A stretch of DNA of 64,000 nucleotides. Origin: Solibacteraceae bacterium (GTDB taxonomy: Bacteria; Acidobacteriota; Terriglobia; Bryobacterales; Bryobacteraceae). The stretch's first letter is position 1; each line of letters begins with the position of its first letter. Made by a program: the position numbers and the translations under genes. The notes beneath the pieces were generated by a model that searched no databases, was not told the origin of the DNA, and saw only the letters and a program-made list of their open reading frames with translations. The stretch covers positions 1 to 64,000 of the forward strand of contig JALSRK010000024.1 in assembly GCA_026984795.1 (NCBI GenBank), read 5' to 3'. Of this stretch, positions 46,435-49,344 are shown in pieces.

Positions 46435-46436
46435 AT
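46412..46436 (+). promoter_or_regulatory. putative promoter of the PIN toxin-antitoxin pair
   Basis: A perfect -10 TATAAT lies at 46431-46436, overlapping the first possible ATG (46435). TTGGGG at 46412-46417 is a weak -35 with a short 13-base spacer. If TATAAT is used, transcription starts near 46443 and translation must begin at the later ATG 46462. Confidence 0.4.
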
Positions 46437-46626
46437 GGCGGTGATTTCGAGTACCACGAACATGAACGTCCGAACGACCAGCGGAGAGAGGACGGAGTCG
46501 GCCACATCACGGAGTCTCGAACTACGCCGCAAGCTGAGGGAGATCAGCGACCGTATTGCAGCGAGCGGCAAGAAGGGCTTGACGCTCGAGCAAGTGCGGC
46601 GCGAGGTTGCCGAGCGGCGCGGCTGA
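46435..46626 (+). CDS. putative antitoxin of a PIN-domain toxin
   Basis: The 63-residue protein (54 residues from ATG 46462) is charged, with SLELRRKLREISDRI and KGLTLEQVRREVAERRG. Small proteins of this type, upstream of PIN toxins, are putative VapB-like antitoxins; I do not recognise the exact family. A -10-like TATAAT overlaps the first ATG, which favours the start at 46462. The toxin gene begins 16 bases after the stop. The surrounding sequence differs in composition from the flanking metabolic genes, suggesting horizontal acquisition. Confidence 0.65.
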   Translation: MAVISSTTNMNVRTTSGERTESATSRSLELRRKLREISDRIAASGKKGLTLEQVRREVAERRG

Positions 46627-46642
46627 CAGATCTTCGGACCCG

Positions 46643-47050
46643 GTGCGTACTTTCCTCGATTCAGGCGTGCTGATCGCCGCGGCAGTGGGGAGAGACAGGC
46701 TGCGGCGCCGGGCCCTTCGGGTGATCGAGAATCCCGATCGGTGGTTCTACTACAGCCCGTTCGTTGCGCTCGAGGTGTTGCCGAAGGCAGTCTACCATGG
46801 CAACACCGATGAGGCGGAGTTCTACCGGACGTACTTCAGAGAGGCGACCTGCTTCGGTGATCTCGACCGGATCTACGAGATCGCGTCGTCCGAAGCCGAG
46901 CGCTCCGGCATGGCAGCGATGGACGCGCTCCATGCCGCGGCTGCGCACCTGGCAAAGTGTGAGCAACTGGTAACGACCGAGAATCCCCGAAAGCCGCTGT
47001 TCCGAACGAAGCTTGTGGAGGTTGTAGGACTGAGCCACCTCAAAGAATGA
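46643..47050 (+). CDS. PIN-domain (VapC-like) toxin
   Basis: The 135-residue protein has the PIN nuclease layout: the first acidic residue in FLDSGVLI near the N-terminus, a glutamate in VALEVLPKA, and the C-terminal AMDALHAAAAHLA with the third acidic residue, followed by LVTTENPR. Such toxins cleave RNA (often tRNA or rRNA). GTG 46643 places the first strand directly at the N-terminus; an upstream TTG would overlap the antitoxin. It pairs with the small gene just upstream. The next genes are convergent, on the minus strand. Confidence 0.85.
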   Translation: MRTFLDSGVLIAAAVGRDRLRRRALRVIENPDRWFYYSPFVALEVLPKAVYHGNTDEAEFYRTYFREATCFGDLDRIYEIASSEAERSGMAAMDALHAAAAHLAKCEQLVTTENPRKPLFRTKLVEVVGLSHLKE

Positions 47051-47518: not shown

Positions 47519-47935
47519 CTACCTACGAGGAGGGGCGACGACCCAAAGCGCGCGGCGAGCGAACCAGCGCCTTGTGGAATCTGTCTTCGGACCACAGACA
47601 ACCGCGTGAGAGGACTCCTCGGGTAGCGGGTCAGAGCAGACGGTCTGTCCGCGTGATCGAACCTGCCCAGCAGTCAATGAGACGAGTCCGTATCCCTCAT
47701 GGCCCTCCATCACTCTGCGGACGTCGCCGCCCTCTGACTCGATAACATCTCTCCGGTATACGGACATTGGATCGCCGTCCTCATCATCCTCGAAGGCTGC
47801 GGACGACGGGCGAAGACGGTTGAGTCTCTTGTCAAAAAAGAAATGCCAGGGAGGAATTCGGCGCAGTAAGTCCTCGCCATCGCCAACATCGGGATCGTCG
47901 GGGAAATTCTCGGCACAGTATTCCCGCGTGCTCAC
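47519..47935 (-). CDS. conserved hypothetical protein, third gene of the TIGR04255 operon
   Basis: The 138-residue soluble protein has a conserved look: LLRRIPPWHFFFDKRLNRLR, RPSSAAFEDDEDGDPMSVYR, HEGYGLVSLTAG, DPLPEESSHAVVCGPKT and a basic WFARRALWVV end. From memory, the RIPPWH and RPSSAAF words recur in an uncharacterised bacterial family, but I can assign no function. It starts with GTG 13 bases after the preceding stop and is probably co-transcribed. Acidic His/Glu/Asp-rich stretches could bind metal, but nothing diagnostic is present. Confidence 0.7.
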   Translation of the reverse strand: MSTREYCAENFPDDPDVGDGEDLLRRIPPWHFFFDKRLNRLRPSSAAFEDDEDGDPMSVYRRDVIESEGGDVRRVMEGHEGYGLVSLTAGQVRSRGQTVCSDPLPEESSHAVVCGPKTDSTRRWFARRALWVVAPPRR

Positions 47936-47948
47936 AACATCAGAATGG

Positions 47949-48521
47949 TTATCGTGTCGAGATTCGTTCGACCCAGCGTTTGAGCTCGTGTTCGTGGCCG
48001 GTCACGGGTGACTCCACGCTCTCTCCTGACTCCAGATCTTCAGCAAAGAACGTGACATTCTCAGGAGACCTGATGTAAATCTCTATGTCACCTCTTTCCG
48101 TATGCCACTCTAGCTGAATTCCTCCTCGTACAGTCGGGACAACGACCGGAGAAACTGTCCTGAAGTCGAGCAGCTCGGCCAGCAACCGAATCGCCGTGAC
48201 CACATTCTGTGGCGCAATCGGTCTGGCTGAGTACGAGTTCCATCCCGTAGGAAGGGCCAGGAGATCTACTACCTTCTCGACACTCCTTCGGAAAGACCGC
48301 GGTAACGGACCCCTGGCTTGCACTTCCACGCTTGGGCGTAGCCCGCCCGTGCGAATCACTATCCTACAGATCGCGGAAACAAGTGAACTTTCGCCCTCCG
48401 GAGTGATAGCTTGCCGAACCAATGCATCCGGGCTCGTCGCCCCGGAGAGTCCTGGCTCTGGAAGAACGGTGGTTTCCGACAAGCTGTAAACCTGTTCTCT
48501 TGCTGCAACGGCCTCAAGCAT
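47949..48521 (-). CDS. conserved hypothetical protein, second gene of the TIGR04255 operon
   Basis: The 190-residue protein has a variable N-terminal half. Its C-terminal half contains LALPTGWNSYSARPIAPQNV, a helix AIRLLAELLDF, and then PTVRGGIQLEWHTERGDIEI, a strand pair with the GW-x2-Y and LEWH words that I associate with a small uncharacterised bacterial family. ATG 48521 follows GGGGGAGG with a short spacing, and the TIGR04255 stop lies inside the start (ATGCTTGA, 8-base overlap), so translation is coupled. The function is unknown. Confidence 0.7.
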   Translation of the reverse strand: MLEAVAAREQVYSLSETTVLPEPGLSGATSPDALVRQAITPEGESSLVSAICRIVIRTGGLRPSVEVQARGPLPRSFRRSVEKVVDLLALPTGWNSYSARPIAPQNVVTAIRLLAELLDFRTVSPVVVPTVRGGIQLEWHTERGDIEIYIRSPENVTFFAEDLESGESVESPVTGHEHELKRWVERISTR

Positions 48522-49344
48522 CTGACCTCCCCCATGCGGCATGCATCTCGGGCGTCGTCAAGTCGGCGAACCCTTTCACAATCCATTCTCTCCCCAGGTC
48601 GAAAAACTGAAAAGCGCCGTCGATCCCTTCGCTAAAAGGGGCGCCACGGGCCGTCAGGTTCAAAGTCAAAATCGGGGCGTTGTCCGTCTTCCTCCACGCG
48701 GGTTGCAGGAGAACATGCAGTCTGCCGAGCGGCGCCCTCGTTTCATCTCGCATTATGAAACGGAGCGTGGCGGCGGCGTTCTCGGGTTCCGGCAGAAAGG
48801 CGCGCTCCGGAAGACCTGCCCAAATCCGCACGACCTTTTCGAGCTGACCGTGACCTTCCCACACCGCACCGGGTTCAATGTGATTCACATAAGTGACCTC
48901 GCACTGGTTGACCTCTAACGGCTGAAACCCCTCTTCCTTTAAGAATTGCTCGAAGACGGAGACCTCCTGGCGGAACTTCTCGCGAATTGGCTCGAAGCGC
49001 GGGTATGGCTGATCCTTCGCCGTTCTACGCCAGTTGTGGATGAAGCGGTCGGATTGCACCTGGATCAACTCGGACTTCGCTTCATTGAGGAACCATAACC
49101 GCGGCGCCGGCGGCCGTTCTTCGATCGTCACCTGAGCCTGGGGGGGTGAGGGTGGTCCGAAGGTCTCCACCACCGGAGCCAGTGGGGCGTATTCCTCGAT
49201 CAGAGGCAGCTCTTTCCGGAATCTCTGCCACAGCAGACCCACGTGAGCCGCCGTCAGGCCCTCGATCGGCTCGAACTGGAGGGACAGAACTGTTTCCACC
49301 AGCGGGGGATTTCGGAAATCAGGAAGATCTTCCGGTCTGCTCAT
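48514..49344 (-). CDS. TIGR04255 family protein
   Basis: The 276-residue protein fits the sporadically distributed TIGR04255 family: FRNPPLVETVLSLQFEPIEG at the N-terminus, a central VNQCEVTYVNHIEPG, a LNLTARG strand and a C-terminal FADLTTPEMHAAWGR. The family's function is unknown. ATG 49344 is chosen; a TTG two codons upstream is also open. It heads a three-gene operon with overlapping or nearly touching genes, in a region of lower GC content than its neighbours. Promoter-like TTGGAT-N16-TATGAC lies 46-73 bases upstream. Confidence 0.8.
   Translation of the reverse strand: MSRPEDLPDFRNPPLVETVLSLQFEPIEGLTAAHVGLLWQRFRKELPLIEEYAPLAPVVETFGPPSPPQAQVTIEERPPAPRLWFLNEAKSELIQVQSDRFIHNWRRTAKDQPYPRFEPIREKFRQEVSVFEQFLKEEGFQPLEVNQCEVTYVNHIEPGAVWEGHGQLEKVVRIWAGLPERAFLPEPENAAATLRFIMRDETRAPLGRLHVLLQPAWRKTDNAPILTLNLTARGAPFSEGIDGAFQFFDLGREWIVKGFADLTTPEMHAAWGRSDA

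Follow-up and report, generated by a model that had tools for sequence, protein, structure and literature searches.

The first 64,000 nucleotides of contig JALSRK010000024.1 (assembly GCA_026984795.1) of a Solibacteraceae bacterium, referred to here as the window, carry three closely packed genes, A, B and C, and the question that they raise is whether they form one functional unit and what that unit does. The initial annotation had proposed an undescribed defence or conflict module led by a TIGR04255 family protein. On balance, we lean towards the view that A-B-C is a tripartite toxin-antitoxin module organised like the SecB-based toxin-antitoxin-chaperone (TAC) systems, with the TIGR04255 protein as the third component and C as the toxin. 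The three genes and the two parts of B are located as follows.

48514 to 49344, minus strand: gene A, TIGR04255 family, 276 amino acids (aa), ATG start; proposed third (chaperone-like) component
47949 to 48521, minus strand: gene B, 190 aa; proposed antitoxin
48303 to 48521, minus strand: variable N-terminal extension of B (approximately residues 1 to 73); proposed site of contact with A, on the basis of its position and variability
47952 to 48302, minus strand: conserved domain of B, with W94-N-S-Y, P125, P129, G133, Q136, E138, W139 and E147 (column counts over 52 sequences)
47519 to 47935, minus strand: gene C, 138 aa, GTG start; proposed ADP-ribosyltransferase (ART)-fold toxin

The 8-base overlap of A with B and the 13-base gap from B to C are as first annotated, and so is the lower GC content, which measures 0.57-0.58 over the operon against 0.60-0.72 elsewhere between 38 and 58 kb. 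The identity then given to the lead gene also holds: A scores 81.5 bits against a curated cut-off of 30 and is by score a member of TIGR04255 (sporadTIGR04255), a family whose NCBIfam description names no function, and it is the single match to this family in the 5.23 Mb genome. All three reading frames are intact, and a TTG start two codons further upstream is possible for A. Neither B nor C has a match above a cut-off in Pfam or NCBIfam, short matches of B to Bac_rhamnosid_C and rrmJ below the cut-off having been set aside, and the inverted repeats 5′ of A are too short for an operator to be called.

The A-B-C order recurs widely. Genome contigs were scanned with an alignment of A, and the best 80 of 133 confirmed relatives were combined with two viral loci into a set of 82 loci (individual loci are given as L numbers), which was classified with profiles iterated on those same loci (E up to 0.01). 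The three genes occur in the order A-B-C in 65 loci, while A and B only are found in four, A followed by a middle gene (x) and a CD(L/I) gene in four, A-x-PIN in three and A without either in four, with two loci ending at a contig end. CD(L/I) is a name coined here for a family characterised by the motif (T/S)Q-x-CD(L/I). According to the titles of their records, the 65 A-B-C loci belong to Acidobacteriota (26), Planctomycetota (13), Nitrospirota (7), Actinomycetota (6), Pseudomonadota (3), Chloroflexota (2), Myxococcota (2), Methylomirabilota (1), Gemmatimonadota (1), Thermodesulfobacteriota (1) and the unranked 'Deltaproteobacteria' (1), together with two virus records; this gives ten phylum names overall, the titles being those of metagenome-assembled genomes (MAGs) and some of them possibly wrong. 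With start codons picked by a rule permitting an overlap no greater than 60, the A-to-B gap lies between -60 and +30 in 64/65 loci and the B-to-C gap between -60 and +60 in 62 of the 63 measured. Given this recurrence and the close A-to-B spacing, the arrangement exceeds chance. Since the 82 loci were picked by similarity to the window A protein, the fraction of 65/82 overstates the association of TIGR04255 with B and C in general, and in the draw from the phylum described below the last gene is C-like in 7/27 readable loci.

Several loci are degraded, divergent or redundant. Several of the 65 have a split reading frame for A or C (e.g. L027, L053, L061, L070 and L088), and L078, which is included in the 65, has weak B and C matches (1e-4 and 7e-3). 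L006/L059 and L007/L064 are apparently identical loci, each counted once among the 82, while the A proteins are near-identical within the pairs L009/L093 and L047/L094. B is matched in 11/396 genomes of the phylum, with stops inside one of the matches. A and C adjoin B in L006, L007, L008 (with A truncated at the end of the contig) and L009. In L010 a different upstream gene precedes B and C, and no A or C is recognised beside B in L005 and L011. The copies in L003 and L004, from one genus, are decayed, with A broken, C not found and B open. The A protein of L048, a MAG that bears the title Bordetella parapertussis, clusters with Nitrospira, so that the bin is probably mislabelled or chimeric. 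Two of the A-B loci in which C is not matched (L054:7306-7884 and L082:6279-7142) share an unrelated-looking third gene with the motif MYRNGRPV...FPDQSVNREK, perhaps another partner of B.

The genes following TIGR04255 were then considered across the phylum, where the family is present in 39/396 genomes with 46 matches in total. The 29 best-scoring matches were drawn, one per genome, and do not represent a random subset. Two of these loci stop at a contig end, and small genes lie directly behind A in all 27 readable loci, the next gene starting at -59 to +30 in 25/27 by automatic reading and the middle open reading frame (ORF) of L111 and L121 being found by reading. The last genes belong to the CD(L/I) family (10), the C-like genes (7) and the HEPN-like (2), PIN (2), MazF (2), HicA-like (2) and DUF7689 (1) classes, with one unclassified (L121), the HEPN, HicA and second MazF labels having been given below the cut-off or by eye. 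In L136 the PIN gene directly follows A. Matches over the Pfam cut-off were obtained for PIN in L119 and L136 of this draw (45.3 and 33.5 bits) and in L068 and L069 of the 82-locus set (31.2 and 25.3 bits), for PemK in L131 (68.7 bits) and for DUF7689 in L124 (133.1 bits).

That effector classes have been exchanged behind A is furthermore reflected in a tree built from 116 sequences of A, of which 106 are classed; on it the class changes at least 14 times, where the least possible number is 6; shuffled labels gave a mean of 27.0 changes and were as low as the observed value in 0/200 cases. The effector classes are thus clustered yet exchanged. This was a quick tree with many long branches, in which four A-B-only loci were labelled ART and L003, L004, L006, L007 and L088 were left out. 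Five of the six plasmid matches to TIGR04255 were inspected (H1-H5; H6 was unannotated), and here too the genes behind A vary: L013 is A-B-C, the last gene of L151 is HEPN-like, in L154 a helix-turn-helix (HTH) gene precedes a CD(L/I)-type gene, and L152 and L153 have two unclassified genes.

Members of the CD(L/I) family, the commonest last gene in the phylum draw (L110, L113, L115-L117, L132, L137 and others), gave nothing relevant in Pfam (two proteins, one with a wrong start), PADLOC (two) or NCBIfam (two). Two subsets of the family align with 95% probability, and an unseeded profile matches L111, L115, L117, L120, L125, L137 and L154; L111, L125 and L137 later entered a subset alignment, not the unseeded profiles. 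The family is possibly a new toxin family.

A number of results weigh against the reading as a tripartite module. The profiles for the last-gene classes were partly seeded from loci that they then label. An unseeded C profile finds only L133 and L138 of the seven C-like cases, an unseeded B profile finding five (L122, L123, L126, L133 and L134), and the C-like label of L135 comes solely from an alignment. L131 falls under the NCBIfam MazF cut-off (116.8 against 150), the HEPN-like cases under that of Pfam (14.1 and 15.1 bits against 22), and L127 and L128 likewise score 17.2 bits against 23.1 for PemK and 14.5 against 27 for HicA, while L129, labelled HicA-like, has no HicA match in Pfam. Finally, L020, L023, L024 and L026 retain A without B or C. 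These four loci form, with L025, a clade near the window A in which no toxin is recognisable beside A, L025 retaining B.

The toxin candidate itself was approached through structure prediction. An AlphaFold2 model of C from 58 sequences reached a predicted local distance difference test (pLDDT) score of 96.8 and a predicted template modelling score of 0.89. Its closest neighbour in VIA-align is Tpt1 (8tfz_A; Z 7.6; root-mean-square deviation 2.8 Å; 90 residues aligned), followed by AvrPphF ORF2 (1s21; Z 6.6; 4.0 Å; 97), pierisin (5h6m_A; Z 5.1; 3.6 Å; 111), Tse2 (5ako_C; Z 5.0; 3.4 Å; 98) and DarT (7omx; Z 5.0; 3.4 Å; 98), with RES, ParT, NarE and others lower in the list. The familiar families in this list, 2o0q and 8gug set apart, are of the ART fold. 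The consistent list of neighbours and the confident model favour an ART-like fold as the predicted fold of C. Five positions are invariant or close to it in the C family, namely R42 (52/58) and four with the following codons.

47861 to 47863, minus strand: Arg25 of C, in the first strand of the protein; R in 53/58
47762 to 47764, minus strand: Ser58 of C; S in 58/58
47657 to 47659, minus strand: Arg93 of C; R in 53/58
47606 to 47608, minus strand: His110 of C; H in 58/58

R25, S58 and H110 are also constant in a 15-sequence alignment that includes more distant C-like genes. The reference triads for NAD binding in ARTs were R-S-E and H-Y-E, and H110 occupies a place where a Glu might stand. The assignment has evidence to contend with. 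Every Z value is below 8, which is middling and can reflect a common arrangement, and a Foldseek search with the C model gave no match at E 0.001 or better, the best being AvrPphF ORF2 (0.081) and then Tpt1/KptA (0.13). Unlike the R-S-E enzymes with their Glu, the C family has no invariant acidic residue among the 58 sequences, and an R-S-H site is therefore only a guess, catalysis having possibly been lost. A search of PDB sequences with the A, B and C profiles gave nothing convincing (best E 0.0021, A to C3HR3_9r_shift4).

The rank of the Tpt1/KptA RNA 2′-phosphotransferases as the closest structural neighbours of C could be taken to mean that the locus has nothing to do with toxins and antitoxins, and that C is a small Tpt1-related RNA- or nucleotide-processing enzyme with A and B as its partners. 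We consider this highly improbable. The match begins at approximately residue 83 of Tpt1 and so excludes its N-terminal part, the Tse2, DarT, RES and ParT toxins share the neighbour list, and PIN and MazF genes stand behind the same A family elsewhere. The genes are, moreover, patchy in the phylum, as the genome counts for A and for B given above indicate. The initial annotation had seen no effector motif and would have dropped the module idea had the structures matched ordinary housekeeping enzymes. Indeed no motif is visible in the sequence, whereas one is suggested by the structure predicted for C. Its neighbours are enzymes and toxins of the ART fold, the nearest individual one, Tpt1, being an RNA-repair enzyme. 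The earlier suggestion of an undescribed conflict module is supported, since the triplet, whose co-occurrence elsewhere had been singled out for checking, is found widely and since C has such neighbours.

B and C both show affinity to PDC-M32 of the PADLOC catalogue, which reportedly originates from a PADLOC preprint. Residues 81-170 of the window B match positions 262-351 of 375 of PDC-M32A (1.2e-12), and at E up to 0.1 all 52 members of the B family match PDC-M32A and 15/58 of the C family match PDC-M32B (best 3.3e-9), the window C itself having no match to the latter. Judged by these profile matches, B and C are distant relatives of this candidate system, the C-terminal part of M32A being B-like and M32B being C-like. 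In the full-length PDC-M32A encoded by L096 (2.4e-121) a different N-terminal domain, here N32, is fused in front of the B-like part, and a C-like gene comes next. PDC-M32 differs from the window genes in this fusion, the window B matching positions 262-351 only, and in lacking a recognisable neighbouring A gene in both L096 and L098. Relatives of N32 in L097 and L099 (PDC-M32A profile: 6.1e-31 and 6.0e-23) lack the B-like part and precede a PIN-like gene, identified by reading and with a profile built for this analysis, from which it follows that N32 also exchanges partners. In PHROGs the window proteins have no match, and two relatives of B match phrog_30544 weakly (0.0079 and 0.034). An ORF behind the C-like gene of L096 (2973-3966) and L133 (2889-3734) has a RelE-like start, continuing in L096 into helicase-like sequence (by reading), and thus adjoins modules of both the PDC-M32 type (L096) and the A-B-C type (L133).

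The module has also been found on mobile elements. A plasmid of Mycobacterium paragordonae carries the same three genes adjoining a MobF relaxase, and of two IMG/VR records one has an integrase match (64.3 bits) adjoining the module (L094) and the other, of 15 kb, a phage portal gene (219.8 bits) on the same record (L095). In L094 (4467-12099) A-B-C is flanked on one side by a gene for a tyrosine recombinase and on the other by two ORFs that are, by reading, ParB/DNA-methylase-like. The plasmid and virus records support horizontal movement of the module, though defence is not thereby demonstrated. A viral scan with P0001 as sole query gave no useful result, and tblastn searches found no match for the window B and C or the L011 protein in plasmids, nor for the L039 relative of B in phages and plasmids.

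These affinities bear on the reading of the module as a dedicated anti-phage abortive-infection system of the PDC-M32 kind, in which A would sense a phage product and free C. The distant relationship of B and C to PDC-M32A/B and the two IMG/VR records speak for it, as does CmdTAC, which according to PMC11618068 operates in this way. PDC-M32 is, however, itself only a candidate, named in one paper as found by PADLOC in Sinorhizobium prophages; most of the loci are contigs, and the PADLOC comparison in the window covered five proteins. We regard a dedicated anti-phage role as rather doubtful. The conflict part of the earlier proposal is supported, in the shape of a tripartite toxin-antitoxin-like module; a defence role is possible, its link being the distant kinship with PDC-M32 and the two virus records.

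Evidence on how A might act on such a module comes from the middle genes. Members of the B class have a variable segment of median 82 residues (range 18-99; 66 loci; starts by rule) before the conserved W motif. A parallel is found in an A-x-PIN operon (L068), which can be compared with the PIN toxin-antitoxin pair that the initial annotation had correctly placed next to the module.

46435 to 46626, plus strand: 63-aa antitoxin-like ORF of the PIN pair, outside the module; comparison case
46607 to 47050, plus strand: PIN-domain ORF, outside the module (PF01850; 27.2 bits, cut-off 23.6)

This pair lies beyond C on the opposite strand and forms a two-gene unit of its own. Nothing resembling A lies upstream of it, nor was A found on the PIN strand within 1.5 kb upstream in 11 fetched loci of the same PIN subfamily. 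A tail profile built from five stand-alone antitoxins of this subfamily, including that of the window, places the 171-aa middle gene of L068 at the top of 13,058 ORFs (2.9e-5; next 0.052). The antitoxin of L140 aligns to its residues 126-162 with 51% identity, and that of the window shares 36% identity with it over 33 residues. The tail of this protein is therefore antitoxin-like and the approximately 125 residues before it are extra. L068 thus resembles VapBC-type pairs in using a PIN toxin and an antitoxin tail of the subfamily of the window's neighbour, and differs from them in the length of the middle gene, the stand-alone antitoxin ORFs measuring 63-98 aa (seven measured). By analogy with this case, we infer that the extension of B contacts A. 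A macrodomain-like ORF with an antitoxin-tail-like C-terminal end (by reading) stands directly before a PIN gene of the same subfamily in L145 (66-1499).

The arrangement recalls the TAC systems, such as HigBA1-SecB(TA) of M. tuberculosis and CmdTAC of E. coli, in its three closely set genes, in the combination of one constant third protein with varied toxin and antitoxin families, and in an antitoxin with a variable extra segment, seen here in the one A-x-PIN locus. PMC5105189 describes TAC antitoxins as having a variable chaperone-binding extension that is absent from chaperone-independent relatives, with several toxin-antitoxin families combined, and the extension as graftable, including at the N terminus when the recipient proteins are unrelated. 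CmdTAC is described in PMC11618068 as comprising an ART toxin (CmdT), a SecB-like chaperone by which phage capsid protein is sensed, and an antitoxin that is degraded once the chaperone leaves; CmdT would accordingly be of the same kind as the proposed toxin C. The module differs from TAC in that the extra segment is N-terminal rather than C-terminal, the third component is encoded upstream of the other two genes, and the third protein is a TIGR04255 member whose sequence shows no detectable relation to SecB.

The last of these differences weighs against a chaperone-like A. In hhalign comparisons with one, and then six, SecB sequences the probability of a relationship was below 1%, and the module was not filed as TAC for this reason. 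A tandem SecB was also considered for A and is unsupported on sequence, the two halves of A failing to align with each other. In the predicted structure of A (pLDDT 95.9) the best Foldseek neighbours are chains of TATA-binding protein (TBP; 7.6e-4; template modelling score 0.24 by query, which is low), and the guanidino kinase 9b0t_A aligns with Z 9.4 (4.0 Å; 188 residues). As A is not SecB by sequence and is nearest in structure to TBP and guanidino kinases, a role in keeping the antitoxin folded is attributed to it by analogy. SecB relatives themselves were found in 2/199 sampled genomes of the phylum (one over the cut-off) against 39/396 for TIGR04255.

The TBP neighbours, among which are several viral TBP or TFIID proteins, raise the alternative that the module is a toxin-antitoxin system in which A is a sensor or regulator, for example a DNA-binding autoregulator or a sensor of phage or ligand, and not a chaperone-like stabiliser. 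The conserved polar residues of A (E17, Q95, Q97, N104, W105, E149, N154 and R208) could bind a ligand. The template modelling scores are, however, low, a pure operator-binding protein would not require N-terminal segments on middle genes of different classes, and some middle genes have an HTH domain of their own, two of them over the cut-off (L116, HTH_3, 25.7 bits; L154, Phage_CI_repr, 27.4 bits). We consider this alternative unlikely.

Under the preferred reading, of a tripartite toxin-antitoxin module with A as its chaperone-like component, C would be a small ART-fold toxin and B its antitoxin, the conserved C-terminal domain of which would neutralise C behind the variable N-terminal extension. 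A would recognise this extension and keep B folded and stable, the same job as that of the SecB-like chaperones in TAC. Titration of A by a phage protein or stress would lead to the loss of B and free C, which may then modify RNA or protein from NAD+ and so stop growth. What is observed is the conserved gene order with its close spacing, the change of effector class behind A and, in one PIN case, an antitoxin tail preceded by an extension, while the fold of C is predicted. We infer every one of these biochemical steps, along with the choice of B as the antitoxin of the ART class and the role of A as a chaperone. Tripartite toxin-antitoxin organisation is itself known; none of the texts searched describes TIGR04255 as a third component, and TIGR04255, CHP04255 and IPR026349 go unmentioned in the open-licence PubMed Central literature searched, preprints not included.

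Beyond the window locus, we tentatively propose that TIGR04255 may be a widespread non-SecB guardian of antitoxins, on which at least six toxin classes (PIN, MazF, HEPN-like, HicA-like, ART-fold, CD(L/I) and perhaps DUF7689) would depend through exchangeable N-terminal antitoxin extensions, the ART-fold branch having a new R-S-H active site. If true, this would represent a second, independent solution to chaperone addiction and would give a role to TIGR04255, named by NCBI only as sporadic, and to the uncharacterised genes behind it. In many phyla the family would then serve as a marker of tripartite toxin-antitoxin modules and point to C and CD(L/I) as candidate toxin families, and PDC-M32 would acquire a concrete, testable mechanism, namely an ART-fold toxin with its antitoxin. 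By reading, the flanking ORFs in the window include one for a TonB-type receptor and two that are like a sugar epimerase and an acylase, respectively.

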